From positions 29,293-93,292 of the IMG/VR virus record IMGVR_UViG_3300031537_000001: a stretch of 64,000 nucleotides of DNA. The stretch is one strand, 5' to 3'. The translations under genes were made by a program, and so were the position numbers. The notes beneath the pieces are model-generated. The model searched no databases. It had not been told where the DNA came from and saw nothing but the letters and a program-made list of their open reading frames with translations. Shown piece by piece: positions 34,060 through 64,000 of the stretch. The first letter of the stretch is position 1. Every line of letters begins with the position of its first letter. Origin of the DNA: a virus.

Positions 34060-34060
34060 G

Positions 34061-37000: not shown

Positions 37001-38884
37001 TTTACGAATATGGCTGGTTTTCATCAAGGTATGACAGGTGAAGTTAATACAATTACTTATGATGATATTTTCAAAACTGCTGAACCTGATGTTGTAGTAG
37101 ATGAAATGACTAATGAGAAAAGACAGTTTATCTTTGAAACTATTTCTCCTTCTGTAATAGATTTTTTACCAATGAATAAAATATATGAAATCTATATGGA
37201 TGAAACTATTGAAGTAGTAGGATCTAAAAATAGATATCCTGCTTCTTCTATTGCATACCTATCTAAAGCTTATGAGTTTAAGTATATTGATAATAAAACT
37301 GTAACAAAGGAATCAGTAAGTGATGATTATATTCATGGCAATCCAATTTTAAATCCGATTGATTATAATGCAGGGACACCATTAAAAATAGAAAGTGCTG
37401 ATGGTATTTATAAAGGTAGAATACGTTTAGAGAATGGACAACTGATAGATTGGGAAGAAATTAAAAAAGCTTCATTAAATTCTGAAACCTGGGATAAATT
37501 TCAACAAAGTTATAAACTCGGTAAATACTCAGGTAAAAAACATTTTAATGAGTTTGATATTTTTGATTACTGGCCTTTAACCATTAAACATGGAGAAACT
37601 GGTCAATTAATAGGTTTTGTACATAATACTCAATGGATAAATCATATTACTTCAGCCGATTCAGTTATTGATTCTAATAGACTTGCTTTAGGAAAGTTTA
37701 GAAAAGATCTTATATCTTATTTACTTGAAAATCCAGAAACTCCTTTCGAGACTAAAATAGTAAAAAAAGTGATTGAACGTAAGGATGATCATTATGTAGG
37801 ATTCAGATTACTGTCTAAGAATAAGGCTGAATTAGCTAATAAATATTTGGATCCATCTATTTCATTTGGTATAATGAATATTTCTTCTGTTGAGGTTCCT
37901 GGTAGAGCTTCAATAGAAAATAATATCCTTAACACGGATGAGGTTGAACAATTTTATAGTGGTACATCTTTTGCATTTATCCCATTAGGAGAAGTAAATG
38001 GAAAAATGAAATATCATGCTTCACCACTTGTTACAGATAAACTACCTCAATCTATAATAAAAAGTTTACGTCAATCTATAGAAATTTTTGCAAAACAAGA
38101 TTCAAGCATTAATCAACTTTTATATGATTCTTATAAAAAAGATGGTATTGATTTATTATCTAAAAAAGGTTTATCGGATGTGTTTACTAAAGTAATTACA
38201 TTATATAATCCAAAAGAAAAAGGTACTCTTGCAAAGACCTTAAAATCCAGATTAGGTAAATCTTCTTTAGGATTTATAGAATTCTCTGGAGAAACTTTAT
38301 CCTTTGGAAAATCTCATGTTTATTCTATCTTTAAAGGTCAGAAAGATCTTGATACTAATTTAGATATACTTGAAACTCAAATATTACCTCATGTATTTTT
38401 TAATGTGAATAAAAATTTACTTAATAAAACAAATAAATTTACATTCGCATCTATAAATGATTCAAATGAAATTGATACCTTTGAAGGAAATTACAATGAA
38501 TTTATAAAAAATTATGTTAGTACCTTTATGAGAAGTGTAAAGTTAGAAGATGGAACAACGGCTTATACTGCACAGAATATAACAGTATTTGATATGGATA
38601 CTTCAAAGTTAAATAAACTAGAAATAGAGGAAACAAATGTAGAAACTATACAAGAAACTATTCCTGAAGGTTTAGAAATATCTTCTGTGGGGATTGATGT
38701 TAAAATAGAAGATTTACTTAAAAATCCTATCCTTAAATCTATATCAGAAAAATCAGGAAAAGATATAAATAAACTAGCTTTAAACATAGCTGAAGGTAAA
38801 ATAACATTAGAGAGATTAGTTAGAGCATTAAATATTTCTCAAACTGCACTAGAAAATAACGAAAATAAAAACTGTGATTCATAA
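34061..38884 (+). CDS. Giant virion protein, about 1,607 aa, before the RNA polymerase
   Basis: I chose ATG 34061, directly after the preceding stop. The ATG at 34031 is 30 bases inside the previous gene. The product has two glycine-rich hydrophobic areas (about residues 110-145 and 205-230) and many charged helices with coiled-coil character, then a mixed C-terminal domain. No DxDxD motif is visible, so it is probably not the catalytic polymerase subunit. Large proteins beside the virion RNA polymerase are a feature of crAss-like phages; they are packaged and probably ejected. It overlaps the next gene by one base. Confidence 0.65.
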   Translation: MAVTELKDTGNGESKKYLTDNYKTEQFTDDKGIEYSPVKFQGDEESGFTYKPRGNVATLPGRNPVFMGSTSPRFAIPSKDWSLWDAGFTGDNIQDLERFRAEQQPWIVKAGYTIGGGALSGLGTIIEDAGYLMDYMTYVNMFTDIDMHSQKSMNLFRALPSAYQQMGRGLKKSTEKNVMPVYQNLDPNSFSDQVFQWNTLKTIIDNAVGFAVTGWGIGQVVNVAGKGIVKGLTKIGKNLAKVAETPAVLSELSIADRVAIKLSRTEAYAKLLSQRNPELFSTMDATFTGIFTKSVEGRMEGMEAYENYLEQYKPLVQNGVITQEELEQMASKEAGDVFDVTQRLFALDAMILKGLAKGKVITSKKLANPNFFRRNAHILSGIPKESTEEAIQQIAQMEGEYGLLQQTKNLQPGNYNKMKELGFDPDELLERYSERLAEYLLSNEVLVAASIGGISGPIQSAAFSMFDRKSRIKNIQDAYKDQQEQYKTNDKLFKATVEFKEKAKQLKLTDDMEEVSQLLGDKELQSIKEDATLAGIALDNFRKGTSDNLKQTLKESKDPEVSKLLPKLENLEKDYISSKKYINADRVFQLQNGVRLLQELLDNNRLKSNDVKLDEKTRTSYIKSANELENIIAKANETIDKETTKDYQIKLAESVIQMEKINKLVNSIAKVEDISALNTLKTLNPNLSDVIDDRIDQIRSTANLSKTTNTEDTKQNIQTKTRKSTPDNSTIEGKLDIITSKIANSVELTEEEIKLQKENIETIKDKLSNLHMQEETSENDVVDNEGTAYTESSGIEVKNKRDFDNVVKPVITELYKNLSENKDFNLNYNDVEDELYNYYLNIVDTVEDVNQLNDELTAKAEQLYKEHDKTSRLKDEIEIEAEEEIDANKSNEFLFSKSANKLVELLNLDKDLSSELTEDIISPEQQAENDAKAKVGKQILDTFKSMWKEMIQAGIEVEDFSTFIQAFQAAVKDPIVVREWFTNMAGFHQGMTGEVNTITYDDIFKTAEPDVVVDEMTNEKRQFIFETISPSVIDFLPMNKIYEIYMDETIEVVGSKNRYPASSIAYLSKAYEFKYIDNKTVTKESVSDDYIHGNPILNPIDYNAGTPLKIESADGIYKGRIRLENGQLIDWEEIKKASLNSETWDKFQQSYKLGKYSGKKHFNEFDIFDYWPLTIKHGETGQLIGFVHNTQWINHITSADSVIDSNRLALGKFRKDLISYLLENPETPFETKIVKKVIERKDDHYVGFRLLSKNKAELANKYLDPSISFGIMNISSVEVPGRASIENNILNTDEVEQFYSGTSFAFIPLGEVNGKMKYHASPLVTDKLPQSIIKSLRQSIEIFAKQDSSINQLLYDSYKKDGIDLLSKKGLSDVFTKVITLYNPKEKGTLAKTLKSRLGKSSLGFIEFSGETLSFGKSHVYSIFKGQKDLDTNLDILETQILPHVFFNVNKNLLNKTNKFTFASINDSNEIDTFEGNYNEFIKNYVSTFMRSVKLEDGTTAYTAQNITVFDMDTSKLNKLEIEETNVETIQETIPEGLEISSVGIDVKIEDLLKNPILKSISEKSGKDINKLALNIAEGKITLERLVRALNISQTALENNENKNCDS

Positions 38885-41800
38885 TGGGTTGTCAAGAAAC
38901 TAGATTAGGTTTATTAAAACCAGAAAGAGTAAAAGAGATTTTAGCTTCTCAGGATGTTTTTATCCAAGGTCTTTCATTTGCAAAGCAAAAAGAAGTAGTT
39001 AATGTTCTAACAGGTAGGCTATATCAAGCTGCCTTCGAAAATACAAATCCTGAAAAAGTATTGCTAAATACTATTGTAGAGAATTTTGTTAAAGATGTAG
39101 AAAGTAACATAAATTCGTTACAAGAATCTATTGAAGATCTGGAATTACTCAATGATGATAATTCTATGCAGGAAGAAATTGATTCTGTTAAACTAAATAT
39201 TGCAGATAATAAATCTGTAATTGATAATATAGATAAATTTAGATCTTTAGCAAAAGCTGAGTTAGAACATATTAATTTTATCCGGATTAAAAAACTGCAA
39301 GAAAGTTCAGAATTAGTTTCCAAAGAACAGGAAGAGTTATCCGAAACTCCGGATATGGAATCTTCCTTTGAACGAACTTCTTTTTCTGATAACTTTTCTA
39401 TAGAGTTAAGTTCCAGGGATACCATATCCACACGGATGAAAAAATTTTTATCTTATATTACTGAATACGAATATCAAGATGGTATACCGGTACAAAAGAA
39501 ATCTTTTATAGGTACAGAAATAGCTTTAGATTTTAATTATGTCTATAAAGAATTGCATAGCATTCTACATGATTTACCAGCTAAATACGATGTCTTGGTT
39601 TCTAAACTGGATGAATTTACTTCCTCAGCTATAACTGAACAAAATCCAAACTATGCTTGGTTACAAGATATATCTAATAAATTAAGTTCTAAAGATTCCA
39701 AGGGTGAATATACTTTAGATGAACAAATAAGAAAAGAATTTGTTACTGATATGACTAAACATAGGATAAAAATGAAATTTATTTCCTATGAGCTTAAATT
39801 GGAAGAAGATGGTTTTTATCATCCAAAATTAAAAGTATATGATGATGATTCTTCTTCTATAAGTAGACGTATTCAACAACAATGGAAAAAAAGTCATCTA
39901 AAATCCAGTGTAGTAGTACATGGTCTTTATGATGAGAATAAACTTCAATCAGTAAAAGAAAAAATTTCAACTTTAAGAAATACAGATCAAAAAGATGGAT
40001 TAGCTTTAGCTAAAATAGCTACAGATATCCTTCATAGTTTAGGTATTAATGCTGAACCTATCTATGTAAATTCATTATTCTTAACCAGTAAAAAGATATA
40101 TTACGGAAGTAAATCATCTACTGGAAGACAGTTCTTTCATCCTAATGGACCGATAGATATTTTACTAAAACAGATGTCTCCAGGTTCTTTAGTGGAGAAT
40201 TCTGATGTAATGAATGACAATATAGTTTTCGGATTAGTTAATGGCTCTTCTTCCTATGTTAAAGATCAATTCGCTCACTCCTTTAGAATAGGAGATAAAA
40301 TTATCTATACATATACTAATAATCATTATACAGTTAATCGGGTAAATAAATTAACAGAAGAAAGCTCTCAACTTAGATCTGAATTATCTAAATCTCTATT
40401 CGCAAAAGAATCTCTTTATCTGGCAATGTTAAATAATGAAGATACGAACTTTAGAAAAGATTTTGAAGTTTCATATGTATCATTACATCCACTAAAAACT
40501 AAAAGACGCAGATCGAAAGAAGCTAATAAAATTAGTCCTACCGATATGGAAATTGTTAAAGTAGGATTCTTCAATAATGGAAATAAATATAATTCAATAA
40601 ATATAAATGGTAAACCTTTATCTTATCGTAAGGCTCAATATTTTTTACCTACTAATTCTGACAAAGAGAGAATTTTATTAGGTTCCGGTTTAGCATTTGA
40701 TTCTGTAGTATCTGATACTGTAGAAGATAATTCCGGTAAATTAATACCTACACAATATTTTAAACCTGAAGCTTTGGATTTAATGTATGAGAGTGTAGTT
40801 AAAGCTGAAATAAATAGAATCTTCTCTACATCCCAACCTTCTTTTGATGAAAATATAGATTTAGCTGACTATAATGGAAAACTATTTTACTTATTTCCTT
40901 CTTTAAATGATTTGACGATTAAACAAAAAAATAATGAAGGAGATGAGGTAGAAGTTAAGTTACTCGATTTAGTTCAGTCTTCTCCCCAAATTGATTCAAA
41001 TGTTAAGAATCAAATCAAAGCTGAACTTGTAAGAACATTAATTGATTCTACTTTTCAAACTTTAGAATCTTATAAATCTAAAGGACTTATAGTAGAAAGA
41101 GATGGTAAATATTTCCCTACAAACAGATTAGTATTAAAATCTACTAAAGCTGGTAAAACAGATGTTATCGCTTCTATTATGAATATGAAATTTAACTATT
41201 TCCTATTTAATGCAAATATGTTTCAGTTAATAGTAGGAGATCCTTCAAATTATGCTAAAGGTAATATTAAAGGAACTTATGCTAATATAGGCAAACGTTT
41301 AGCAGCAGAAATTGCTCCGGGAAATGAATTCGAAAGTGAAGATTATATTCAATTATATGCTAAAGATAAAATCTCTACTTCAGTAGTATTTAAACATATC
41401 TTGAAAATACTTGATAATAAGACATTACAACAATTTAATAGTATGTCTGAAGATCAACGTAGGAAATTAAAATCTTTTCCTTATACTGCAATAAAAGGTA
41501 CAGATGCACAGGAAATAACTACCTGGAAAGAACATTTAGATGTTCTTAAAGGTTTAGGAAGGATCAGTAAAAAAGAATATGAAGAAGCTTCTGATGCATT
41601 TTCCAATAAACGTCTTCCAACTAAAAGAATATTTGATAAAGTTTTACAACCTTTAAAACCTGTATATGTAAACAATAAAATAATACAGGTAGGAGATTTT
41701 AAAATTGATAAGAAAATATACATTAAAACATCTTCTTTTCCCTTGATACCTGCATTAACTAAAAATCAGGAAATAGATAAACTTAGGCTCAAATTAGAGG

Positions 41801-44800
41801 ATATTGCTTCTAAGAATGGGAATAAAGGAGTAAGATTAGTTTATAAATCCGGGGTTAAGGTTGGATTTCCAAAGAAAACTGCTTTAACTATCTTCGATGA
41901 GGCTGGAAATATAACAGATTTTCAAATAGATAAACCTGAAATATTATCCAGAGAAGGTTTTAAAATTCAACAGGATAAACCTTATGATCCAAAAAAACTA
42001 AAAATTAATAGCGGGGCTCAGGCTAAAAAACTATTATTCGCAAATTTTCTTAATACTGAATTTGATTATAAAGACAATAAGGTTACCGGGGAAGAATTGA
42101 GATCTAAGTATGTTGATTATTATAAACAATTATATGACCTTGGTATCGCTTCTCTAAAAGATAGAATTGGAACCAAAAGATATAGAGATAAAAAAGGAAA
42201 CTCTCAAACATTATTGGATATTGAATTATTATCTTCTTTACTCAAAGGAGAATTACGCAAACGCGGGGAAGATACTAAAGTATTAATAGATGGTTTAGAG
42301 ATAAAAACATTTCCACATAATATAAATGGTAAATCGATAGTAAGGAAAGATTTCGCTATTCCTCTATGGGCTAGTCCTAATGCAGATATTTATGCATCCT
42401 TACTTATATCACTGGTTAAAAATTCTGTAGTTAAACAAAAATTAACTGGTAGGAGTGAAGTTTTAGCTTCTCAGGAAGGTTTTAAACCTACTTCGGAAAC
42501 CGTAATTAAAGCGGTTGAAACTGGTGAAGATTTAAGTAAACTTATAAATGAGTATGATAGTATTCTATTTACTGATAGCTATAATCATGAACAAGGTTTA
42601 CTTCCTCAATACACAGATAGTAAAGGGATTGTACATCCGGCTCAAATATTAGTACCATTTAAATTTCAGGATAATGATGGAAATACATTAGATCTATCTC
42701 AATTTACTGTAAAAAATAAAGAAGGTAAAATTACAATTGATAAAACTAAATTACCTCCTGAACTATTAAAAACTTTTGGATTTAGAATTCCTACTCAGTT
42801 ACATTCTTCAATGTCTTATATGGAGATTGTAGGATTTTTACCAACGATAAGTGGGGATATGATTGTGGCTCCAAGGGAATTTACTATTCAAATGGGTTCA
42901 GATTTTGATGTTGATATGTTATATTCTTATCTCATGTCAACTAAATATAATTCTGTACATAAATCTCTGGCTAAAATAGAAGAAATATCCGATTATAAAG
43001 GCAAAAGACGGAAATTGGCTATTGATTATAAACTAGCTAAACAAAAACTACAAGAAAATTCTCCAAATGACTATAAAGATATTTTTAATCGTATTGTAGA
43101 ATCTATTGATATCTTTCGGGAAACCGGAGATACTATTAATGAAAATGAATTAGGTAATTTTGTAGGTAATTTATACCCGGATGCTGAACTTAATCTGATT
43201 AAGAATGTAATAAATTTAAGTCTTGAATTGGATAATTTTGACAACTTATATAAAAAAAGTATTCATAATTCATTGCTTGATATTCATCTTACTGTTGTCA
43301 GCAGTCCACAGACTCAAAGTAGTATTATTACCCCTCTTGGATTAGGACAGTATTTAGGTACAACTATTAAATATGATGGTAAGGAATACATAGATGGTTA
43401 TGCAGATTTAATAGATACTTTATCTTCTTCTGTAAGACAAGAACCCATAATATCTGATATTTATCAGACTAATAAATTTTATGATGGTACTGAAGGTAAA
43501 GATGGTATTAGTATGTTCTCGGCAGATTCAATCTTTAATGCTTTGGCCCAAGATAAAGAACTTCAAATTCAAACAACAAATTATTTAGGAGAAAAGGTTC
43601 CTATCCAGATTGAATTTGGAAATAAATATGACATGTCTAATGGAATACTTGGTAGATTACTTTCATTAAAAAAGGATTCACCAAGAAAAATTACTGAAAT
43701 TATAGCTGCTGCTCAAAACCTATCAGTAGATAATGCTAATGAGCAAGGTATGTATAAAGTAAATATGAATAAATACACATTTAATGTATATTCAATATTA
43801 AACTTTCTCGGTTTTGAGGAAGACGTATCAACTACATTTATATCTCAACCTATAATTAAAGATTTTGTCAAATTAGTAAGAGAGTCGGAATCTATTACTG
43901 GTAAATATAATCCGGATAGAATAGATGATATTATTGATATCTTAAAAAAGACATATGATTCTCAATCAACTTATACTCCAAAAGATCAAAGCTTAGCTGA
44001 TTTCAAAGGTAAAGATGCTTCTAAAGAAATGCTTGATATGATTAAAGATCAAGAAAAGTATATTGATTTTGGAAAACATCAGGTAGCAATTTTACTTAAA
44101 TTTTTACAATTACAAGAGTATGAAAGATATCCTGCATCCTTAAAGAAATACTTGAATATCGATTCTAAAGGATTTAATAAAAATATGTTTATCAATAAAC
44201 TTAGATACGATAAATCTTTTACATTAAATTTCCATAATATAAAGAATGCAGAATCTTTATTAGGGACAATAGAAAATGATGAATTTGGCTTAACTGATGT
44301 TAATCCTACTACACTAGCTGGCTTAGATACTTGGATAGGAACTGAAAGTTTATTATCATTCTTTGGTAATGAATTTGTAGAAACAAATCCTTCCTTTATG
44401 TTCAAGAGTATATATTCAAATCTAGCTGTAAATATAGGAAGGGATGGAAATCTCTCAGCTAGTCAATTAAAATCTATAACAAATGGATATAAAGACTTTC
44501 TTCTTACTAATTTTAAAACCGGAAATATAGATAATGTTAGAAAAGTTCTTTTTACCAATACTAAAGAAGGTTCTCTATATGATAATCTTAATAAATTAAA
44601 AGATTCAATATATTGGAAAAAGAATACCTTTCTTAACGGAATAGCATTCCAGGAAACAGATGGTGTAGTTACTATAGATTTCAATAATACTTCAGAAGAT
44701 ATCTTAGATGATAATAAATTCTATTTATCTTTTCTGGATATGTTCCGTAATGATAGTGAAATAAATGGTGTAATTCCATCTATTGTAGCCGAACAATTAG

Positions 44801-47355
44801 CAGTATATGGAATTCTTCGTGGAACTTTCAAAGCAAGACAGTTTACAAACTTAATTCCTGTAGATATACTTAATGAAGTTATCGGTATTCCCAGTTCTAT
44901 AGATCAGGTAGATACATTTATTGACCAATGGATTCGTCATAATCCGGAGGAAACACAGAATATACAAAAATATACATTGACAGGGAGTCAATTACTACCT
45001 ACTGAAGGAATTGAATATTCTCAATATATACATATTGTAACTGAAGACAATGTTGTAAAAGTATTTAAGAAATCACCCTCAATAAGTGATGTATATCACG
45101 AAATATCTCAATTAGGTAATGATTATATAACAGAATATAATATTCAAGGTAAAGCTAAATCTATATTTAAATCCAACAGGACTGTAGAAGAACCATTGAA
45201 AAAAGATATCCATCAAATTAGAACCAGAGAAGGAACTTACATATCCGGAGATACTGTTAATGGATATAATATTGACCAGATTCAGGAAGAAGTAAAGTTA
45301 GATTATTCCAGTTCAGATAACTTAATTCAATCAATCATAGATCAAACTGAATATCCTGAATTATCAAATCTGGCTTTAGTAATTCAGGGAGTTATTCCTG
45401 ATGATATTACTCTTATAGTTACTGATACTATAAGAGGATTAAAGTATAATCCGGATTCAAATACAATTACGATAGGTAAAGAGTATATATCTACTTCATC
45501 TTCTCACGATATTATAACCGGGATTATGCATGAATACATGCACTCAGTTACATTACAAGAAATTGATAGATTTTCAAAAGGTAGTTTTAATCAGCCAGCT
45601 ATACAATCTTCTCTAAGTAGGATAAATGATTTCAAGAACAGAATCATCTCTAACTTAACCGAAGAGCAATCCAGTGATTTTAAAGCAGTTATGTTAGGAT
45701 ACTTAAATTCTGTATCCGATAATAAATTAAATGCTTTACTAAATAATTCGACAATTCATGGAGATGTACTTGAATTAATTAATAAAATTCTTACTTATAG
45801 AAAAAATCCTGAATTTTTTATTGATGGAAAATTTAAATCTGATATAGAAATAGCAAATAAACAATATACTGAAATAGCGGCTGAATCCAGATCAAAATTT
45901 GAAAGCTATTATTCTTTACTTAATTTATCTGAATTTGTTGCAGTAAGTTCAACCAGAAATATCTTTAAGGAATTAAATGTTAATACTTCAGAGTATAAAG
46001 GTCTTATTCAGGAATTGTTTCAAGCAATATTAGAATTACTTGGTTTTTCAACTGATGGAGCTCAAATGTTAGCTAGTGATATATTAACTGTAGCTAAAGT
46101 ATCTAAGGAAGATGTTGAGAAGATTCAAAAGACTAAAGTAGAAAAAGCTATTAATAATGATTTAATATACTCACATACTGATGGTAATAGTTATATAATA
46201 GAGAAAGGTAGCATTTACAATATAAATAATTTAAGTACACCTGTTATAATGGACCAAGTAAAAAGGTCAAAATTTACGGTTGATTTTATAAATGCTAAAT
46301 CTAAGAATGTTGAATATTCAATGTCAGATTTTTCAGATTCAGCCCAACGTAAATTTCGACAAAATGGTAAAGATTATAATTCTATCCAGGAATATAAACA
46401 AAATAATGAACAAAACTTAGATTCAGCTATAACAGAATCATATAGATCTAATCCGATATACATTGCTAAAATGTTTAAATATGTTGCTGATACCGGGGAT
46501 AAATCTAAGTTTGGAAATTTGTATAACGAGTTACTTGATTTATATGATTATATGGATTCTATTATAATCAATACTCCTAAACAACTGGATATAAATTATA
46601 GTAAAGAGAATCTTCCTCCAAAAAATGTCAATACTGTAGTAGTTACTAATGAAACATATTCTGCTCCTGTTAGTTATGCTACTGATGCAATTATAGAATC
46701 AATAAAGAATAGTGACCTTGAAAGTATAAAGGATCAGTTTTCAAACTTTGAAGATCAGGTTTTAAAGTCTCTTGAAAAAGAAGGGGAAGAAGTAAAGAGA
46801 AAATGTAAAAGTAAGACAAAAGCTTCTAAAGGAATGAAGAGTAACTTTAAAAAAGGGTTTGAATGGAGTTTGGTTAAAGACCTTAAAGGATTTCCTTCAC
46901 ATACTCAAGGAGGAGTTGATTTAAAAATCTCCAATGGTAAAGTTACCTTTTCTGGAAAAAATGGTACAATTGAAGCAAAGCATGGATTATTACTTCATGA
47001 GACTTCATATGCCAGATTTAATAGGATGAATAGAAAAGGTGGGGATTGGGAGATATCTAAGACTAATAATTCTAAAGTCTATGCAGAAAAGGGACTACAA
47101 GTAAAGTGGAATAAGAAAAATACTTCTTTTGAAAAAGGACATGAATGGAATCTAATTAAAGATTTAAAAGGTTTTCCTTCACATAATAGTGGAGGAATTA
47201 ATATATTTGTGGAAGAAAATGGTAATATAGGATTTACAAAAGGAGAGACTAAAATAAAAGCAGCATGTGGTTGTGTTATACCTAATAAATCATTCATTAA
47301 ACTTAACTCTGCTAAAGAATCAAAAAATGTCAAACGTTATATAAAAAGAAAATAA
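38884..47355 (+). CDS. Giant virion RNA polymerase fused to a zinc-protease-like domain
   Basis: The product has 2,823 residues. The motif D1340-F-D-V-D1344 in MGSDFDVDMLYSY matches the DFDID-type metal site of the crAss-like virion RNA polymerase, where three aspartates hold the catalytic magnesium. About 200 residues earlier, segments rich in Lys and Gly are candidates for the other double-psi barrel. Near residue 2216 is H2216-E-Y-M-H2220, an HExxH zinc-protease motif in IITGIMHEYMHSVTL. The C-terminus has two copies of a LKGFPSHxxGG(V/I) repeat. It should be packaged and transcribe early phage genes. Fusion with a protease-like domain may serve self-processing (inference). Confidence 0.82.
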   Translation: MGCQETRLGLLKPERVKEILASQDVFIQGLSFAKQKEVVNVLTGRLYQAAFENTNPEKVLLNTIVENFVKDVESNINSLQESIEDLELLNDDNSMQEEIDSVKLNIADNKSVIDNIDKFRSLAKAELEHINFIRIKKLQESSELVSKEQEELSETPDMESSFERTSFSDNFSIELSSRDTISTRMKKFLSYITEYEYQDGIPVQKKSFIGTEIALDFNYVYKELHSILHDLPAKYDVLVSKLDEFTSSAITEQNPNYAWLQDISNKLSSKDSKGEYTLDEQIRKEFVTDMTKHRIKMKFISYELKLEEDGFYHPKLKVYDDDSSSISRRIQQQWKKSHLKSSVVVHGLYDENKLQSVKEKISTLRNTDQKDGLALAKIATDILHSLGINAEPIYVNSLFLTSKKIYYGSKSSTGRQFFHPNGPIDILLKQMSPGSLVENSDVMNDNIVFGLVNGSSSYVKDQFAHSFRIGDKIIYTYTNNHYTVNRVNKLTEESSQLRSELSKSLFAKESLYLAMLNNEDTNFRKDFEVSYVSLHPLKTKRRRSKEANKISPTDMEIVKVGFFNNGNKYNSININGKPLSYRKAQYFLPTNSDKERILLGSGLAFDSVVSDTVEDNSGKLIPTQYFKPEALDLMYESVVKAEINRIFSTSQPSFDENIDLADYNGKLFYLFPSLNDLTIKQKNNEGDEVEVKLLDLVQSSPQIDSNVKNQIKAELVRTLIDSTFQTLESYKSKGLIVERDGKYFPTNRLVLKSTKAGKTDVIASIMNMKFNYFLFNANMFQLIVGDPSNYAKGNIKGTYANIGKRLAAEIAPGNEFESEDYIQLYAKDKISTSVVFKHILKILDNKTLQQFNSMSEDQRRKLKSFPYTAIKGTDAQEITTWKEHLDVLKGLGRISKKEYEEASDAFSNKRLPTKRIFDKVLQPLKPVYVNNKIIQVGDFKIDKKIYIKTSSFPLIPALTKNQEIDKLRLKLEDIASKNGNKGVRLVYKSGVKVGFPKKTALTIFDEAGNITDFQIDKPEILSREGFKIQQDKPYDPKKLKINSGAQAKKLLFANFLNTEFDYKDNKVTGEELRSKYVDYYKQLYDLGIASLKDRIGTKRYRDKKGNSQTLLDIELLSSLLKGELRKRGEDTKVLIDGLEIKTFPHNINGKSIVRKDFAIPLWASPNADIYASLLISLVKNSVVKQKLTGRSEVLASQEGFKPTSETVIKAVETGEDLSKLINEYDSILFTDSYNHEQGLLPQYTDSKGIVHPAQILVPFKFQDNDGNTLDLSQFTVKNKEGKITIDKTKLPPELLKTFGFRIPTQLHSSMSYMEIVGFLPTISGDMIVAPREFTIQMGSDFDVDMLYSYLMSTKYNSVHKSLAKIEEISDYKGKRRKLAIDYKLAKQKLQENSPNDYKDIFNRIVESIDIFRETGDTINENELGNFVGNLYPDAELNLIKNVINLSLELDNFDNLYKKSIHNSLLDIHLTVVSSPQTQSSIITPLGLGQYLGTTIKYDGKEYIDGYADLIDTLSSSVRQEPIISDIYQTNKFYDGTEGKDGISMFSADSIFNALAQDKELQIQTTNYLGEKVPIQIEFGNKYDMSNGILGRLLSLKKDSPRKITEIIAAAQNLSVDNANEQGMYKVNMNKYTFNVYSILNFLGFEEDVSTTFISQPIIKDFVKLVRESESITGKYNPDRIDDIIDILKKTYDSQSTYTPKDQSLADFKGKDASKEMLDMIKDQEKYIDFGKHQVAILLKFLQLQEYERYPASLKKYLNIDSKGFNKNMFINKLRYDKSFTLNFHNIKNAESLLGTIENDEFGLTDVNPTTLAGLDTWIGTESLLSFFGNEFVETNPSFMFKSIYSNLAVNIGRDGNLSASQLKSITNGYKDFLLTNFKTGNIDNVRKVLFTNTKEGSLYDNLNKLKDSIYWKKNTFLNGIAFQETDGVVTIDFNNTSEDILDDNKFYLSFLDMFRNDSEINGVIPSIVAEQLAVYGILRGTFKARQFTNLIPVDILNEVIGIPSSIDQVDTFIDQWIRHNPEETQNIQKYTLTGSQLLPTEGIEYSQYIHIVTEDNVVKVFKKSPSISDVYHEISQLGNDYITEYNIQGKAKSIFKSNRTVEEPLKKDIHQIRTREGTYISGDTVNGYNIDQIQEEVKLDYSSSDNLIQSIIDQTEYPELSNLALVIQGVIPDDITLIVTDTIRGLKYNPDSNTITIGKEYISTSSSHDIITGIMHEYMHSVTLQEIDRFSKGSFNQPAIQSSLSRINDFKNRIISNLTEEQSSDFKAVMLGYLNSVSDNKLNALLNNSTIHGDVLELINKILTYRKNPEFFIDGKFKSDIEIANKQYTEIAAESRSKFESYYSLLNLSEFVAVSSTRNIFKELNVNTSEYKGLIQELFQAILELLGFSTDGAQMLASDILTVAKVSKEDVEKIQKTKVEKAINNDLIYSHTDGNSYIIEKGSIYNINNLSTPVIMDQVKRSKFTVDFINAKSKNVEYSMSDFSDSAQRKFRQNGKDYNSIQEYKQNNEQNLDSAITESYRSNPIYIAKMFKYVADTGDKSKFGNLYNELLDLYDYMDSIIINTPKQLDINYSKENLPPKNVNTVVVTNETYSAPVSYATDAIIESIKNSDLESIKDQFSNFEDQVLKSLEKEGEEVKRKCKSKTKASKGMKSNFKKGFEWSLVKDLKGFPSHTQGGVDLKISNGKVTFSGKNGTIEAKHGLLLHETSYARFNRMNRKGGDWEISKTNNSKVYAEKGLQVKWNKKNTSFEKGHEWNLIKDLKGFPSHNSGGINIFVEENGNIGFTKGETKIKAACGCVIPNKSFIKLNSAKESKNVKRYIKRK

Positions 47356-47358
47356 ATT

Positions 47359-47856
47359 ATGAAAAATCTAATTAGTGATGTTTTAATAGAAGCCTTGCAA
47401 TATAGAATAAACCAAGAAAGAATAAGCAGTTATATTTATGAAGATATGGCTAACTATTTAGACTACATAGGATTTACAGGAGCAGCTAAACGTTGGAGAA
47501 AATATGCTTCGGAGGAACTAACTCATTCAGGATGGGGTGAAAGTTTATTATCTGATTTAGACCTATTACCTAGAATGGATATAATTCCTAAACAACCAGG
47601 AACCTATTCAGGATTAGTAGATATCATAGATAAAAGTCTTGAACATGAAATTACGATTACACAACAATGTAATGAATTATTTGTCTTAGCTATGAAAGAA
47701 GGTTGTGGTATGGTTACTCAACTTGCTTTAAAATATCAGGCTGAGCAAGTAGAAGAACTTGGTAAAATGACTTATTGGAAAAATCGTCTTGAAGCTTTTG
47801 GTGATGATTCTACAGCTTTAAGATTTCTTGACAATGAAATGGGAGATCTGGATTAA
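47359..47856 (+). CDS. ftnA: Ferritin (FtnA-type, ferroxidase)
   Basis: The 165-residue protein matches non-haem bacterial ferritin in length and layout. All nine residues of the E. coli FtnA iron centre line up at a constant offset of +3: A/B site E20, E53, H56, E97, E133, with Q130; C site E52, E129, E132. Motifs are EELTH, LEHE and QAEQVEE. The end FLDNEMGDLD matches the FtnA C-terminal helix. It would oxidise Fe(II) and store iron as a 24-mer. It follows the giant polymerase gene by 3 bases and precedes wall-degrading genes. No signal peptide. A Dps-type protein is less likely because the A/B/C sites of ferritin are present. Confidence 0.9.
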   Translation: MKNLISDVLIEALQYRINQERISSYIYEDMANYLDYIGFTGAAKRWRKYASEELTHSGWGESLLSDLDLLPRMDIIPKQPGTYSGLVDIIDKSLEHEITITQQCNELFVLAMKEGCGMVTQLALKYQAEQVEELGKMTYWKNRLEAFGDDSTALRFLDNEMGDLD

Positions 47857-47874
47857 TATAAAAATAATCAAACT

Positions 47875-49083
47875 ATGGGAAAAAATATAGAAGCCGAAGG
47901 TGGGGAACTAACTCTTCGAAATCAGAATAGGGATATAATTATTGTCCCTAAACATGATAGGGAAAAAATTCTTAAAATGTTAAAGAATAAAGACCATGAA
48001 GGTATAGATGAATATGCATCTTCTTTACCTTATATGGAAGATTATGCTGATGATGGTAGTTTGTTATTAAATGATAATATTGGCCCTGAACCGGGACCAG
48101 GTGAAAAGGGTACTACTAAAAATAAAACTATTACTTCTAAGAAATCTGAAGGTTTATATACTAATAAAGAATATGAAGCTTTAAAAAATGATTACTATAC
48201 TAATTCAAAGTATACAAAATATAGTGCAAAAACTCCAGGAGCAGGTTGTGTAGGTTCAAGTTGTAAAAATTTTGATGTTCTTTACCCCGATAAGAAAGGT
48301 TTTTATGAAGATTATTCTAGTGTAGGATTATTCCAAAAAGAATATCCAAAAGTAGTTACGAGTAATAAAGGTGTGAGAAAACCCCAAGGAAGTTCGGTAG
48401 GTATAGATGCTTGGGAAGCAGAAGATTTTATAACCCATAATAAATTGGGAGAACCTATAGTTAGTGCGAATGATAAAGATTACTTAAAGAAACTTTATGG
48501 ACTTGATCCTAGAGATATTCCTATTGGTTCAATGTTAACTTTTGGAGATGCTGTGAAAGCTGGTTATGTAGAAAAAGGAGCTCCAAATTGGAGAGGTGTA
48601 AAAGATCAGCATATGACTCAACATGGAGGTGTTGCAATGGGTTATGTTGAAGATGAAGATGAAGAGGGAAATCAAGTGTATAATTTAATGGTAGATGAAC
48701 TTGGTTTAAAAACAATAGGACAAGGTAAAACAGCTACTATGAGTTGGCCTTCTTATGTAAGTAGTAGGGATATGAGAGGAATTGTTAAAAGATACAGTTC
48801 ACCAACTAACTATTGGGATTTATCCGGAAAAGAAAAAAAGAAAATTTTTACTAGACCTAAAACTGTAGATGTATTAAAAGATATAGAAAGATATAAAAAA
48901 GAAATGTTAGAATCTATAAAATGGAATGAGGAAAATGAAATGCCTGGTTATCCCAAAGGTAGTTATGCAAAAGCACAAAAGGAAGGTATAAAAATACCAA
49001 AAGAATTACTATATAAATTTGGACAATCTACTGGTTTAGCTCCTGGAAATCCAAAAATTGTCGAAGTAGAAAAAAAGAAATAA
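47875..49083 (+). CDS. Virion protein with NlpC/P60-like cysteine peptidase domain
   Basis: The 402-residue product starts MGKNIEAEGGELTLRNQNR, a GG motif also seen in other virion proteins here. In the second third, AGC125VGSSC130KN is a candidate catalytic Cys region, and Q249-H250-G-G-V-A-M-G-Y has the HxGI(Y/G) pattern of the NlpC/P60 family His, followed by a YNLMVDE strand. This would fit a cysteine peptidase that cuts peptidoglycan cross-links. The rest has low-complexity segments. It sits in the virion block beside the M23 gene, so it may act during entry. Confidence 0.55.
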   Translation: MGKNIEAEGGELTLRNQNRDIIIVPKHDREKILKMLKNKDHEGIDEYASSLPYMEDYADDGSLLLNDNIGPEPGPGEKGTTKNKTITSKKSEGLYTNKEYEALKNDYYTNSKYTKYSAKTPGAGCVGSSCKNFDVLYPDKKGFYEDYSSVGLFQKEYPKVVTSNKGVRKPQGSSVGIDAWEAEDFITHNKLGEPIVSANDKDYLKKLYGLDPRDIPIGSMLTFGDAVKAGYVEKGAPNWRGVKDQHMTQHGGVAMGYVEDEDEEGNQVYNLMVDELGLKTIGQGKTATMSWPSYVSSRDMRGIVKRYSSPTNYWDLSGKEKKKIFTRPKTVDVLKDIERYKKEMLESIKWNEENEMPGYPKGSYAKAQKEGIKIPKELLYKFGQSTGLAPGNPKIVEVEKKK

Positions 49084-49113: not shown

Positions 49114-49725
49114 ATGAAAAATTCAATTTTAATTTTAGTCTTCATTGTAATAACAGCATTTTCTTGTATTTCTGTAATGGATGAACAAGCATTATCTGAA
49201 TTAAATGAAGAGATCTCATTGAGAGATGCACTGCCATCTAATATAAGACTGCAATATCCTGTGGATATGTCTAAATATTATGATGCTAATCCATATGGAA
49301 ACATAACTAAATATGGAATTCATCTAGGTTCTGATTTAAATAAATATGGACCAGTAAACTGTGATTTAGGAGATACTATTTATTGTATCGGATCTGGTAT
49401 GGTTATCGAATGTTCTGATCCTTTAATAGTTATACTACATAGAATAGAAACTGATTCTATGAACTATATTATATCTAGTTACTATCATTGTGATACTATA
49501 TTTGTAACTCCAAATGATTATGTATCTAAGGGACAACCAATAGCTTTAATAGGAAAAAAATGGGCTTATACAGCACATCTTCATTTTGAAATCCTTACAG
49601 ATACAACTCAAAGACGAGAATTCTATTTTGATAAAGATAGTAGAGTTGATGATTATAGAAAATTATCTTGTATAGATCCTATGAAATTTATCAAAGAATA
49701 TAAACCTAATAAAAGAAAAAACTAA
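49114..49725 (+). CDS. M23-family metallopeptidase, putative lipoprotein
   Basis: The 203-residue product starts with a hydrophobic signal and a Cys (ILVFIVITAFSC, C18), a plausible Bacteroidota lipobox. The M23 (lysostaphin-type) zinc site is complete: H70-x3-D74 in GIHLGSDL, H125 in SSYYHC, and H155-L-H157 in AHLHFEI. It cleaves peptide cross-bridges. Being exported or lipid-anchored, it could act at lysis rather than in the virion. It touches the helicase gene without a gap (49726). A leader of repeated AAT precedes the ATG. Confidence 0.85.
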   Translation: MKNSILILVFIVITAFSCISVMDEQALSELNEEISLRDALPSNIRLQYPVDMSKYYDANPYGNITKYGIHLGSDLNKYGPVNCDLGDTIYCIGSGMVIECSDPLIVILHRIETDSMNYIISSYYHCDTIFVTPNDYVSKGQPIALIGKKWAYTAHLHFEILTDTTQRREFYFDKDSRVDDYRKLSCIDPMKFIKEYKPNKRKN

Positions 49726-52389
49726 ATGATTTGTTTAGATCTAAATAACTCAAAAGTAACTGAATCTCTGAGTAAACTTACCAGAGTTTTTAAGAATGAG
49801 AATATTGCATATGTTTTACTGGCTAAAAATAATTCATTTAGTCTTGAGAATAATTTACAAGGTAATCCTTCTGAATTATTTAATGGTTTAAAGCATCTCT
49901 ACGGAAATGCTACAAAAGCTTTGAAAACAAAAGCTATTATTTATACAAATGAATTTTTAGCAACTAATGAATGGTTTGAAAAAGGAGAACCATCAGTTAC
50001 AGAGGTATTAGAGTTTCTTGATAAACAACGGAATAATTATAATACAGAACCGGTCTTTAATGACCGGTCTGTTATTTTCATTGGGAATAATAAAAGTACT
50101 GGTACAAAGACTTTAACAAAACAAAATATTTTTAGTGTAATACCTGTTCAAGCAGTTGATAAAAAAGCTATTACTAAAGCAAGTATAGCTAATAAATTTA
50201 TTGGTTTTGGTGAAGGGATTGAAAATTCTTCTACAGAACTGTATAGAAAACAAATTGGAAAATATGCTAATACAGGAAACTACAATAACAACGATACTGT
50301 ATTTGTTTCGATTGGAGGTAAAAGAGGTTCTGAGACTTTAAGAAATGAGCAACAAAATAAAACTATTCAAGAAGCTTTAAAAGCTATTGAATCTGGGGCT
50401 ACTCTTATTACTGATAATAAAAGTTATATTGAATCTTCTACATATAATGAAGGAGAAAAAAAGCTTTACTCAATTTTAAAAAGCAAAGGTTATAGTTATT
50501 CTGAACAAACAGTAGATAATCAAGTCTTAGGAGTTTGGAATAAAACTAAATTCAATTTAACTTCTATGTATTCAAATATTGATAATGCCTTATCAAAAGG
50601 TGTTAGAGCTTTTGTAATGTCTCCTATAGAAAAAGCTACTGAACAGGAATTAAATATTTCTGAGTATCTTTTATCAAAGGGTTTTGAGTATGTAGAAAAA
50701 AACGATACCGGATTTTATGTAAAAGAAATTTCAAAAGTAGATGCTATAATTGCAGATGAGGTATCTGATAATCTAATAACTCTAAACAATGTAACAATTG
50801 ATTTACGAAAACTTGGATTTGATTTCTCGTTAACAATACAACAAAAGGAATTCTTAAATAAGTTTGCTTCCTGGTTAGATGGTTCTGATTCAACCATGGA
50901 TAAAAAACATTTCTTATTAAATGGATATGCCGGAACTGGTAAAAGTACAGTAATAAAAGTCGCGATAGAATATGCAAAAACAATAGGTAAAAAACTTGTT
51001 TTAACAGCTACTACTGCTACTGCTGCCGATGTTCAAAAAAGTATTTATGGTGATGAAATAACTACCAGTACTTTACATTCCGCTTTAGGTTTAAGACTCG
51101 ATGGATTTGAAAACCAATTTGGAGATAAGGAACAGTATGATAACTTTGGAGGCATTATTAAATCAGGTGATATACTTGTGATAGATGAAGCTTCTATGCT
51201 TAACAATACATTGTATTCAAAGGTTTTACAAGAAGGGGTTAAAGTTCTGTTTATAGCTGATTCAGGTCAATTTAAACCAGTAGGAATGACAGCTCTTTCT
51301 AAAGTCTTTAATACTTCAGATAAGGTTGTTCAAAACCTAACTAAAGTTGTTAGACAAAACGAAAACAATCTTCTTAATTCTACTCTTACTTTACTTAGGA
51401 CTGATCAGGAAACTACAGTTGATCCTTTAAAAGATAAACGAGTAACTAAAATCAATCAAGAAACTCAGGAAGGTATAGAATATAATATAGGAGAAAAGCA
51501 TTTTTTAGAATCTATTACTAAGTTTTTTAAATCCAATAACTATAAAAAGGTCCCGGGATTTGCTAAGATTCTTACATACTTTAAAAACAGTGTAACTTCT
51601 TATAATAAAACAGTTAGAAATATTTTAGGTTATAAATCTGAGATTGAAGTAGGTGAAGTATTAACCGGTTATAAAAATGTACATTTTAGTAAAACTTCAA
51701 TGTTTAAAAATGGTTCTGATTATGTTGTTACAGGTTCTAATACAAAAAATGTAACAGTAGAAAACCCATTTGATGAATCTATGTCTGTAGAATTTCCTGC
51801 AAATATCGTTGATATTAAAAATACATTGACTAGAGAAACTTTTACTGTTACTATAATGAGTAGATCAGTATCTCAAAAGACAAAAACTGATTTAGCTTTA
51901 ATGTATGAGTATATAAGAGAAAAGATTTATAGTTTTCCAGCAGGAAAATCTCGACAGAATGCAAAAGAACTATTTTATCGTTTTGATAATTCTTTTATGA
52001 CTTTAGATGATTTAGAATCTACTACTTTAAAAGATAAATATGGTAAACCATTAGTAGTTAAAGACAAGACTATAGATTATGGTTATGCTATAACTTTTCA
52101 TAAGTCTCAAGGAAGTACTTATCAATATGCATTAGTTGATGAAACAGGAATTGATTGGTTAATTTCAAAACATAAAGATATTCTTGCTGCAAATCAATCA
52201 AGGTATGTAGCTTTTTCACGAGCAGCGAAAGGTATAGTAGTACGTTCAAGTAAACAGATTTCTACTGATTCAGAATTCGAAATACAAGATGTTGATAAAT
52301 CTGTTGACAATATATCTATTAATGCCGAAAACATAATATCTTTAGATGCTTTAGTCAAAGATGGAATAGCAAATAAAACTTGTAAATAA
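49726..52389 (+). CDS. SLOG-like domain fused to SF1 helicase
   Basis: The 887-residue protein has two halves. Residues about 150-275 (SSTELYRKQIG, DTVFVSIGGKRGSETLR, IESGATLITDN, YNEGEKKLYSILKSKGY) match, from memory, a Rossmann-type SLOG-like nucleotide-binding domain common in phage polyproteins. Residues 396-860 are an SF1 (RecD/Pif1-like) helicase with Walker A GYAGTGKS (400-407), Walker B VIDEASML, and a C-terminal FHKSQGSTY motif. It sits within the virion operon, two bases before the 1,281-residue gene. A packaged helicase or one expressed late are both possible. Fusion is unusual. Confidence 0.78.
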   Translation: MICLDLNNSKVTESLSKLTRVFKNENIAYVLLAKNNSFSLENNLQGNPSELFNGLKHLYGNATKALKTKAIIYTNEFLATNEWFEKGEPSVTEVLEFLDKQRNNYNTEPVFNDRSVIFIGNNKSTGTKTLTKQNIFSVIPVQAVDKKAITKASIANKFIGFGEGIENSSTELYRKQIGKYANTGNYNNNDTVFVSIGGKRGSETLRNEQQNKTIQEALKAIESGATLITDNKSYIESSTYNEGEKKLYSILKSKGYSYSEQTVDNQVLGVWNKTKFNLTSMYSNIDNALSKGVRAFVMSPIEKATEQELNISEYLLSKGFEYVEKNDTGFYVKEISKVDAIIADEVSDNLITLNNVTIDLRKLGFDFSLTIQQKEFLNKFASWLDGSDSTMDKKHFLLNGYAGTGKSTVIKVAIEYAKTIGKKLVLTATTATAADVQKSIYGDEITTSTLHSALGLRLDGFENQFGDKEQYDNFGGIIKSGDILVIDEASMLNNTLYSKVLQEGVKVLFIADSGQFKPVGMTALSKVFNTSDKVVQNLTKVVRQNENNLLNSTLTLLRTDQETTVDPLKDKRVTKINQETQEGIEYNIGEKHFLESITKFFKSNNYKKVPGFAKILTYFKNSVTSYNKTVRNILGYKSEIEVGEVLTGYKNVHFSKTSMFKNGSDYVVTGSNTKNVTVENPFDESMSVEFPANIVDIKNTLTRETFTVTIMSRSVSQKTKTDLALMYEYIREKIYSFPAGKSRQNAKELFYRFDNSFMTLDDLESTTLKDKYGKPLVVKDKTIDYGYAITFHKSQGSTYQYALVDETGIDWLISKHKDILAANQSRYVAFSRAAKGIVVRSSKQISTDSEFEIQDVDKSVDNISINAENIISLDALVKDGIANKTCK

Positions 52390-52390
52390 T

Positions 52391-55300
52391 ATGGATTGTA
52401 CTTATGATATATCTGGAGATAGCCTGCAAGGTCAGGCTATTAACTTCTTACAAAAAGAAGGAATTAAAAATGTTGCTAAAGTATTTGATGAAAGTTCTTA
52501 CACACTGAGTAATAAGGCTAAGTTTAAAAACTCAGCCTCTTTACTTAATATGCTTCAAAATACCTCGGAACTATTTAAGAAACATGGATTATTTATTCAT
52601 AAAGGTAATCCTAAAATTATGCAACGTAATATTGAGTTTTTTGAAAACTTATATACTACTGAAAGATTAGTATCCGGGATTAATACTAAAGCACAAGAAG
52701 CCGGATTAAAACATAATGTGATAAGTAGTAAGAAATTTCAAGGTAACTACTATTTACTTATGCACGGAGATTCTTTTATAAATGATAAATCAGTTGAATG
52801 GCATAATAAACAAAAACAAAAAACTCTACAGGAAAATATCGATTACATTAAGAGAGTAAATAAATATATGTCTGATAGAATTGGACAAGACGTTATATCC
52901 GTTACTAAAACTACAAATGGCTACAGAGTTAATATTAATGAAGATTCTTTATTAAAATATAATGAATTGAGTTATAGAAATTATTTAAACTCTATGACTA
53001 CTCTTTTTGATAACAATGATTCCTATACTGAAGAACATGATTTATTAATCAATCCTATTATACAGGATTTATACAAAGATAGATCATCATTTTCCAGAGA
53101 AAAATATTTACTTGAAGCCAAGGGTGGCAAGAAATCTGATATAAACATATTAGATAATAAAATCAATAAAATAGAAACTACTATAGAAACTTTAAAAAAG
53201 AGTGAAGCTCTTGATGATATATTCCGAGAAGCATTTGATAATTTTTCAGACATCGATATTATTTTAAGTAAAGATAAAATTAGTAACAGAGAATTCATCT
53301 ATTCTAAAAAGAAACTTGAGATGTGGCAAAATTCGGGAGACTTTTCTAAAGGAACTCATGCATTCCTGGATACAGATGAACTTGGGATAGAGGAGTATAC
53401 TGAGAAGTTTGGAGAAATAAGAAATGAGGCTGAGAAAAGATTATCTAAATTATTAAAACTTGGTGAGTCCTTACTAGAATCAACTGTTAACAATAAACTG
53501 AATTGGAATTCAAGACTTGGATTCAATCAAATTACTAAGTTGGTTAACAAGATTAATGTAGTAGGTAAAAAAGTTTTATCTCTCAATAGAGTAGGAAACG
53601 CTCTTGCTCAGTTTATTCATAAAATAGTCAATGAAGCAAATAATAAGGCTTTTATTGAATCAAAAATCAAATCAAGAAGTTTAGCCAATTTATATAGTAA
53701 TGTAAAAAATTCTGGATTTGATCTTAATCTGTTTTATCAAAAGGATGAAGATGGAACCAGAACAGGAGATCTAACTACCAGATTTTCAAGTAAATATTCT
53801 CGTTATAAAAATAATATTAAGAAAAATACTAAAAGGATAAAAGATAATATGATTTTATTAAATCCTGCTATACTATTCGGAGAAGAAGAGGCTGAGAAAG
53901 ATGCATTAGTAAATTTATTAACTGAACATCTTGGAGAACAGGAAACTAACCGATACATAGAAAAAGCTAGAATCAAATTTGATGAGTATAAAGAAATAAG
54001 AAACGAGTATGTTAAAGTAGAATTTGAAACTATAGATCTATCTCTGGAACAAGAATTACAATTACAAGAATGGGAACAAGAAAACTCTCCTATCGCGTAC
54101 ATAAATTCATTAAATACTACAAAACAAAAAGATACTTCTCAGCTTTCTGGTAAAAGTACTTTTTTGATTATGGTCCCAAAAAGATTTAATGAGAAGGGAG
54201 AGGAGACAGGATTTTACGATAAAACTTTTGATTCAATTCTAGCTAGTAAACCAGCTTATGAATTTTATATCGAAGCCAAAGAAATATTAGAAAATGCAGC
54301 TATAGCATTTGGTAGTGTAGCATTTGATACTGAGTCCTTGGGATTTGTACAGAAATCTTTATTAGAAAAGTATAATGAAACTGGTATTATAGATTTTATT
54401 ACAGAAGATGTTTATAAATCATTAGTGAAAGATCTTATTTCAGAAGATAGCCATCCAGCTAAAACTAATTTATTAACCGGTAAAGTAGAACATAATATTA
54501 ATGTAAATGTGCAGTCTATTAAAACCAGGATACACTCAGAATATTCAAGAGCTATAAAAGCGTTAGGAGTAAAAGAAGAAGATTTAACTTCTGATCAAAA
54601 GTCTAAAGTATATAAAGAAGCTTCAGATAAAGTATTTCAAGAAAACTCTGAAAACTTATTTATGTCTTTAAATATGTTAAACCTGGCTGTTCTCAGTGCA
54701 AAACATAAACATAATGTAGAAGATGCTGTTAATCTTGCTATGACATATCTTCCTAATTCTACTGTTGAAATTGGGGATGATTATGTGGACTCAGCCGGAA
54801 ATCCTATTGCTGAAAAATATATAAATAATATGATGGAAATGGCTGAATACTTCTTGTCAATGAGTTATTATGATGAGGGTAAAGTAGATACTTCTGCTAC
54901 TCTATATAAGATCCAAACCAAGGAAGAGAAATTAAAAGTAAAAGAAATTGATAAATTATTATCTCAAACAGATTTAACTCCTGAAAATAGAGCCAAACTT
55001 GAAGAGGAAAAAAAGACTTTAGGTAAAAGAGTTACTATGAATGGAATGGCTAGAAGACTATTAGATATACTACGTCTAAAAGCTTTAGGATGGAATGTAC
55101 CAGCAGCTATTACCAATTATATGTACGGTAAATTGACAAACCTATATAAAGCTGCTGATGGAAGATTATTTAATATACAAGATTTAGCTAAAGCAGAAAA
55201 GATTATAATTAGTGAGAATAAGAAATTTAACCATGTTATAGAAAACTATGGAATTCTAGGAGATATTCTATTTGAATTTAAAGATACAAATAAATTTGAA

Positions 55301-56236
55301 GAAAAAGATAATTGGTTTATGAAATCAATAAAACAATTTAAACCTTATTCTTTACAAACTGGAACCGAAAAACATAACCAAGGATCTGTTATGGTTGCTA
55401 TGATGTTACATCAAAAAGTTAAGGATTCAGAAACCGGTGAAGAAAAAGATATATGGGATGCAATTCTTCCGGAAGGAATTCTTGAAGATAGATGGACTCT
55501 GGGAGAGTTTAAAGGAGAAGATGCTATTGTTGAAATGGTATCCAGGATTAAATCACAAGTAGAAGAAATACATGGTGATTATTCTAACCCTTTACTTATA
55601 AAATCCTCTGTATCGGGTCAAGCTCTAAGTATGTTCAAACTATGGTTCTTTGAAGCCTTTTACAATAGATTCGGTAGAGAACGCCCTGACTATATCAGAG
55701 GCATTTCAATCAAAGGACGTTATCGTACACTAACTTCATTACTAGCACAGTATAAAGGCAATATTTTTAAGGTTACATCTGATTATAAAAATGGTAAACT
55801 GTCTGAGGTAGATGCTGCTAATATGCGTGTAAATTTAGTAGAATTAACTACAATGATACTTGCAGTTACTTTAGCAGCATTATTAAAGGGTGCAATCTGT
55901 GATGATGATGATGATTGTAAAGGAGCTGGGCAGGCAGAATTATTTACGCTTAATATGATGAAACGCTTAACAGGTGAAATATCATTCTTTACTTCACCCG
56001 AAAATTGGTATAAGTTCATATCTAATCCTGTTGCAGCAGCAAATGTTTTAAATGATATGGTTAAAGCAACTGATATAGCTTACATACAATTATTTGGAGA
56101 AGATGAACAAATGGAATTTCAAGCTGGGTATAGAAAAGGTACACGGAAAGATTGGGCCTTAGTTAGAGATTGGATTCCTATGTATAATCAATTTAAAAGG
56201 CTACAACATTATAGTGGAGAGGTATTAAATTTATAG
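52391..56236 (+). CDS. Giant virion protein of 1,281 aa with C-terminal membrane segment
   Basis: The protein is largely helical and charged. In the C-terminal third are conserved-looking segments (RRLLDILRLKALGWNVPAAI, WFFEAFYNRFGRERPDY) that I recall from many Bacteroidota phage giant proteins. Near the end is a hydrophobic segment (LTTMILAVTLAALLKGAI), then an acidic tract of five Asp. The last residues (RKDWALVRDWIPMYNQFKRL) are also a common end. No catalytic motif was found. It is the last gene of the + strand virion operon and its stop overlaps the convergent gene. Confidence 0.65.
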   Translation: MDCTYDISGDSLQGQAINFLQKEGIKNVAKVFDESSYTLSNKAKFKNSASLLNMLQNTSELFKKHGLFIHKGNPKIMQRNIEFFENLYTTERLVSGINTKAQEAGLKHNVISSKKFQGNYYLLMHGDSFINDKSVEWHNKQKQKTLQENIDYIKRVNKYMSDRIGQDVISVTKTTNGYRVNINEDSLLKYNELSYRNYLNSMTTLFDNNDSYTEEHDLLINPIIQDLYKDRSSFSREKYLLEAKGGKKSDINILDNKINKIETTIETLKKSEALDDIFREAFDNFSDIDIILSKDKISNREFIYSKKKLEMWQNSGDFSKGTHAFLDTDELGIEEYTEKFGEIRNEAEKRLSKLLKLGESLLESTVNNKLNWNSRLGFNQITKLVNKINVVGKKVLSLNRVGNALAQFIHKIVNEANNKAFIESKIKSRSLANLYSNVKNSGFDLNLFYQKDEDGTRTGDLTTRFSSKYSRYKNNIKKNTKRIKDNMILLNPAILFGEEEAEKDALVNLLTEHLGEQETNRYIEKARIKFDEYKEIRNEYVKVEFETIDLSLEQELQLQEWEQENSPIAYINSLNTTKQKDTSQLSGKSTFLIMVPKRFNEKGEETGFYDKTFDSILASKPAYEFYIEAKEILENAAIAFGSVAFDTESLGFVQKSLLEKYNETGIIDFITEDVYKSLVKDLISEDSHPAKTNLLTGKVEHNINVNVQSIKTRIHSEYSRAIKALGVKEEDLTSDQKSKVYKEASDKVFQENSENLFMSLNMLNLAVLSAKHKHNVEDAVNLAMTYLPNSTVEIGDDYVDSAGNPIAEKYINNMMEMAEYFLSMSYYDEGKVDTSATLYKIQTKEEKLKVKEIDKLLSQTDLTPENRAKLEEEKKTLGKRVTMNGMARRLLDILRLKALGWNVPAAITNYMYGKLTNLYKAADGRLFNIQDLAKAEKIIISENKKFNHVIENYGILGDILFEFKDTNKFEEKDNWFMKSIKQFKPYSLQTGTEKHNQGSVMVAMMLHQKVKDSETGEEKDIWDAILPEGILEDRWTLGEFKGEDAIVEMVSRIKSQVEEIHGDYSNPLLIKSSVSGQALSMFKLWFFEAFYNRFGRERPDYIRGISIKGRYRTLTSLLAQYKGNIFKVTSDYKNGKLSEVDAANMRVNLVELTTMILAVTLAALLKGAICDDDDDCKGAGQAELFTLNMMKRLTGEISFFTSPENWYKFISNPVAAANVLNDMVKATDIAYIQLFGEDEQMEFQAGYRKGTRKDWALVRDWIPMYNQFKRLQHYSGEVLNL

Positions 56237-63964: not shown

Positions 63965-64000
63965 AATTTACCGTATTACATATTTACCATTAATAATCCA

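Follow-up and report, generated by a model that had tools for sequence, protein, structure and literature searches.

Why a phage should carry what appears to be a complete iron-storage protein among the genes for its virion is the question raised by this locus. The window, the 64,000-nucleotide stretch of DNA analysed here, corresponds to positions 29293-93292 of a source record of 93,292 bases. At 47359-47856 on the plus strand it contains a gene for a 165-residue protein, which the initial annotation described as an FtnA-type ferritin bearing nine iron-site residues of E. coli FtnA at a constant offset of +3. This description is borne out by a match to Pfam PF00210 (Ferritin; E 2.8e-13, with a score of 50.5 bits where the cut-off is 24.5) and by a sequence search of the PDB, which returned bacterial non-heme ferritins, among them E. 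coli FtnA (1eum), where chain residues 5-162 align with residues 8-165 of the window ferritin. Compared against the FtnA iron-site positions, all nine residues are present (E20, E52, E53, H56, E97, E129, Q130, E132 and E133), giving complete ferroxidase (A/B) and C sites, and together with Tyr24 they fall in a gap-free alignment at +3 throughout. The di-iron ferroxidase residues E17, E50, H53, E94, Q127 and E130 (E. coli numbering) all have their counterparts. The predicted structure agrees with FtnA. An AlphaFold model with a pLDDT of 94.2 places helices at residues 7-36, 40-66, 86-114, 117-147 and 151-163, forming a bundle of four long helices with a short fifth helix E, and Foldseek superposes it on 1eum with a TM score of 0.94 and an rmsd of 1.1 Å. 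The protein scores 68.7 bits against the NCBIfam FtnA equivalog NF007638 (non-heme ferritin, PRK10304), below its curated cut-off of 178, which by sequence places it within the same superfamily and outside that equivalog. On alignment and predicted fold, the reading frame encodes a real ferroxidase-type ferritin.

Judged from its hallmark genes, the source record is a crAss-like phage with Cellulophaga phage phi14:2 as its nearest relative, in keeping with the earlier view of the genome. Its MCP and portal are 47% and 41% identical to those of phi14:2, its TerL, portal and MCP match Crassvirales PHROGs, a CrAss ring protein and a virion RNA polymerase are also present, and the gene order parallels that of phi14:2 from g071 to g065. 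Along the plus strand, a tail ring protein (24361-25023, Pfam CrAss_Ring_2) is followed by the muzzle or 'stabilization' protein homologous to phi14:2 g071 and crAss001 gp44 (26215-29850), a large virion protein of 1617 residues assigned by synteny to the slot of phi14:2 g067 (34031-38884), and the 2823-residue catalytic subunit of the virion RNA polymerase, homologous to phi14:2 g066 and crAss001 gp50 (38884-47355). The last carries a DFDVD motif at residue 1340 and aligns with large virion polymerase/structural proteins of crAss-like phages. The record ends overlap, the last ~120 bases resembling the first ~120 with few mismatches (window 63880-64000 against positions 1-121 of L005). The genome of ~93 kb is therefore probably circularly permuted and looks near-complete, although classed as linear.

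The ferritin gene starts 3 nt past the end of the polymerase gene. In phi14:2 the catalytic polymerase g066 adjoins the associated protein g065 with no gene between them; in the source phage their homologues are separated by four plus-strand genes, encoding the ferritin, a 402-residue protein whose fold is not recognised (47875-49083), an endolysin-like M23 peptidase identified by family match (49114-49725) and a Dda-like SF1 helicase (49726-52389), with the 1281-residue RNA polymerase-associated virion protein homologous to g065 beyond them (52391-56236). The initial annotation had set the ferritin between a polymerase/protease gene and two wall-hydrolase genes. The upstream polymerase gene and the M23 hydrolase stand; a protease portion of the polymerase is at most putative, and the supposed second hydrolase, the 402-residue protein, matched neither a family profile above its cut-off nor any PDB entry. 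Its structure model is poor and not usable. Cys125, Cys130 and His250 are conserved in this protein, and a homologue (53-56% identity) lies directly 3' of the ferritin in the crAss-like record G003, with a more distant one in L140. The M23 peptidase gene close to the ferritin is inverted in both G003 (62148-62723) and L140 (12168-12686) relative to the window. A phage lysozyme gene at 17118-17696 closes the replication module, distant from the M23 peptidase of the polymerase operon. The proposed location of the ferritin within a virion operon is upheld by its polymerase-gene neighbours and by synteny. According to the phi14:2 annotation, mass spectrometry detected the phi14:2 homologues of the flanking proteins in virions. 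In crAss001 the virion cargo includes gp45, gp46, gp47, gp49 and gp50, which are presumed to unfold partially as they are ejected (PMC10172136).

The gene recurs, as had been anticipated, in the same slot of other crAss-like genomes. A Pfam search of 45 IMG/VR crAss-like records and five named crAss phages found a ferritin in two (G003 and G038), both directly 3' of a polymerase gene, and the gene is absent from most near-complete relatives in this set. In G003 the order is ferritin, 402-residue homologue, flipped M23 and g065, and in G038 the ferritin stands by itself between two polymerase genes. Scans of viral contigs with single proteins (ferritin, 402-residue protein and muzzle), whose reach is limited to close relatives, gave no match, whereas alignment-based scans succeeded: an alignment of three ferritins located 39 loci, and a profile of 28 ferritins found relatives in 128 IMG/VR contigs, the best 80 of which were retrieved. 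With custom profiles, Crassvirales hallmarks (TerL, portal, MCP, polymerase or muzzle) were detected in the available flank of 93 of 98 viral loci. The ferritin is tightly coupled to the gene before it: in each of the 97 loci where the gap could be measured it falls between -10 and +23 nt, and the two genes most commonly overlap by 1 nt or stand a few bases apart. The upstream gene in these 97 loci, a count that includes near-identical contigs (50 ferritin clusters at ~85% identity) and not independent events, is in 50 cases a ~235-residue gene located after that for the capsid, in 32 the portal, in six the polymerase, in one the muzzle and in eight another gene. Besides the window, six crAss-like contigs thus carry the ferritin directly 3' of the same polymerase gene, and at least five distinct placements are known. 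In one contig (L126) the ferritin is flanked by homologues of the muzzle and of cargo C1 (gp45). A ferritin gene belonging to the same clade is also present in a non-crAss phage (L111, 2818-3315), where it lies directly 5' of the genes for a head maturation protease and a major head protein and has a NUDIX-domain gene as its own 5' neighbour. In L133 a homing endonuclease gene (10493-11332) lies directly 3' of the ferritin, a possible clue to movement of the ferritin between sites.

Host contamination or chimeric assembly might in principle account for a ferritin in a phage record, and three small database records matching the ferritin do resemble bacterial DNA. These INPHARED matches (MT838721.1, MT839617.1 and MT838998.1, GenBank 'Bacteriophage sp.') were rejected as phage ferritins since their neighbours read as bacterial housekeeping genes; they look mislabelled, with bacterial genes beside a bacterial ferritin. 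A second INPHARED query with another phage ferritin returned five records, all at 24-26% identity: two of the same three, a further unannotated 'Bacteriophage sp.' entry and two from Staphylococcus phages that likewise lack annotation. The INPHARED searches yielded no credible clade member among named phages. For the window, however, GC and GC3 of the ferritin gene agree with those of its phage neighbours, the clade signature is almost absent from bacterial genomes, and the ferritin recurs in the same slot of independent contigs. Because of this synteny contamination is considered excluded, with a negligible residual probability.

The phage ferritins form, by their sequences, a phage-dominated clade. 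An eight-residue signature pattern, which divergent bacterial members could escape, occurs in one of 84,980 prokaryote species genomes, in a chromosomal ferritin of Maribacter orientalis. In a tree that also included E. coli FtnA and 24 ferritins of Bacteroidia, a bacterial sample of one class plus FtnA, the phage and Maribacter ferritins split off with full support. Two further Maribacter sequences (L205 and L206) lay on an extreme branch and were taken out of the tree, and a grouping of the window ferritin with that of L111 was rejected as unsafe given long branches. A single insertion of the ferritin at the polymerase site gave an AU p of 0.36, a value that speaks neither for nor against it. 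The chromosomal neighbours of the M. orientalis ferritin (L203, 7983-8492) resemble housekeeping genes, making a transfer between phage and host possible. Trp122 (E. coli numbering), which 23 of the 24 Bacteroidia ferritins sampled retain, is missing throughout the phage clade, and about two dozen further positions differ consistently between the two groups. Given the loss of Trp122, the oxidation chemistry may differ too.

The loss of Trp122 raises the possibility that the cage has been repurposed as a scaffold without iron chemistry, to which the replacement of the C-site E49 by Gly in a few members also lends some support. The pattern of conservation argues strongly against this. Across 51 phage representatives, E17, Y24, E50, H53, E94, E126, Q127 and E130 (E. 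coli numbering) are invariant, E129 is retained in 50 and E49 in 43, the other eight having Asp or Gly. In an alignment of 28 sequences, 17 of 165 columns are invariant and include eight of the ten iron-site columns (hypergeometric p ~9e-8, a simple count that ignores relatedness). The median pairwise dN/dS is 0.33, and most of the least diverged pairs fall between 0.05 and 0.4, which indicates that the phage ferritin is under purifying selection. As the best conserved part of the protein is its iron site, an inactive scaffold, one of the roles first suggested for the gene, is disfavoured and in our estimate very improbable, and working iron chemistry is expected.

Where this chemistry operates is harder to decide. 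The reading that we prefer, with little more than even confidence, is that an active ferritin is made late together with the virion and sequesters iron during assembly. The gene's operon position suggests that the ferritin is produced late, from a message shared with virion proteins. Its fold and helix E suggest that within the infected cell it would probably assemble into the 24-subunit cage typical of ferritins, and its residues that the di-iron site would use O2 or H2O2 to oxidise Fe(II), which would then be mineralised. Fenton-active iron would in this way be removed while genomes, polymerase and capsids assemble, and the benefit, we would guess, is protection from iron/oxygen chemistry and not iron supply. 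A purely host-directed metabolic gene, acting on the iron economy of the infected cell and owing its late-operon position to nothing in particular, would be in line with the Dps and Mn-catalase genes reported in gut phages and read as oxidative-tolerance genes (PMC8008677). It appears improbable here as the position looks non-random, falling in virion modules wherever the context is readable and always tightly coupled upstream.

That same placement counts against the preferred late sequestration in the cytosol, as does the absence of the gene from most near-complete relatives, since a general protector needs no recurring slot in a virion module; the placement fits a component of the virion too. 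The ferritin would then reside in or on the particle, as capsid cargo beside the ejected polymerase or tethered to head or portal proteins, protecting packaged DNA and enzymes or bringing iron chemistry to the next host. The five or more virion-module slots, each coupled to an upstream gene that is mostly a virion gene, point in this direction, as do the genes that flank the ferritin (homologues of the ejected cargo proteins gp50 and gp49 in the window, of the muzzle and the cargo protein gp45 in L126) and the room for ~5 MDa of cargo inside the crAss001 capsid (PMC10172136). The N-terminal stretch before the first conserved motif is also longer at head sites, at 22-24 residues after the portal and 23-57 after the ~235-residue gene, than at the polymerase site, at 8-14 residues, these lengths being upper bounds taken from the first start in frame, though most starts coincide with the upstream-gene overlap. 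N-termini point outward in FtnA cages, and the longer stretches of head-site members keep packaging open. However, a stable 24-mer cage of ~12 nm should not fit through the tail channel, and the polymerase-site ferritins, including that of the window, have no obvious docking extension. On these two grounds cytosolic sequestration is preferred, and a virion role is held to be the less probable, if serious, alternative. In its fullest form the HK97-fold capsid would include an iron-mineralising cage of its own, either as cargo or as a structural part, with head-site versions perhaps attached via the N-terminal extension. Such a particle would resemble a genome-carrying encapsulin; this is a tentative and rather unlikely proposal.

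Phages of the crAss-like group rank with the most abundant viruses in the human gut and are also found in many other environments. The recurrence of a ferritin with an intact site beside portal, capsid, muzzle or ejected-polymerase genes implies selection for iron chemistry while phages assemble or within the particle itself, and suggests that iron handling is part of how the ferritin-bearing members are built or protected. The 'Ferrojan Horse' idea of iron in phage virions becomes directly testable on a defined gene family. PHROG 16594, which has no function on its record, matches all 28 phage ferritins tried, and a concrete function for it and for many unnamed genes should be useful to metagenome annotators. 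No paper describing a ferritin in Crassvirales was found in the open-access literature searched, though one may exist elsewhere; a 2015 ferritin survey taking in viruses is cited in PMC11780533.

At this locus a protein of a known kind is found in a phage setting that is new, conserved and unexplained. The window ferritin resembles E. coli FtnA (PDB 1eum, 9bye) in fold (TM 0.94), length, helix E, the nine iron-site residues and Tyr24, and differs in its identity of only ~32-35%, the replacement of Trp122 by Lys and the location of its gene in a phage virion operon. The Dps-like proteins and Mn-catalases of Gratiaviridae and Flandersviridae and the Dps of Lactobacillus phages (PMC8008677) are likewise phage-encoded members of the ferritin superfamily with a proposed protective role against iron/oxygen chemistry, but these are Dps proteins and catalases whereas the present protein is a 24-mer-type ferritin in a Crassvirales virion module. 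A putative ferritin of an uncultured marine phage (A0A8D9C9X5, only 23% identity) and other viral ferritin-like BFVD entries also show the ferritin fold in phage. Three BFVD entries named prohead protease from uncultured phages (A0A6J7WIS1, A0A6J7WPK9 and A0A6J7XDU5) gave weak, partial ferritin-fold matches that are not significant (E 0.02-0.1); they possibly contain a fused Dps-like domain, which would be another link between ferritin-like proteins and the capsid module. The HK97 fold is common to encapsulin and phage shells. Encapsulins with ferritin-like cargo, as described for iron-storage cargo in general in PMC10960027, similarly link an HK97-fold shell genetically to an iron-handling four-helix bundle; the crAss-like case differs in being a real phage with its own genome, whose ferritin is at most a putative cargo.
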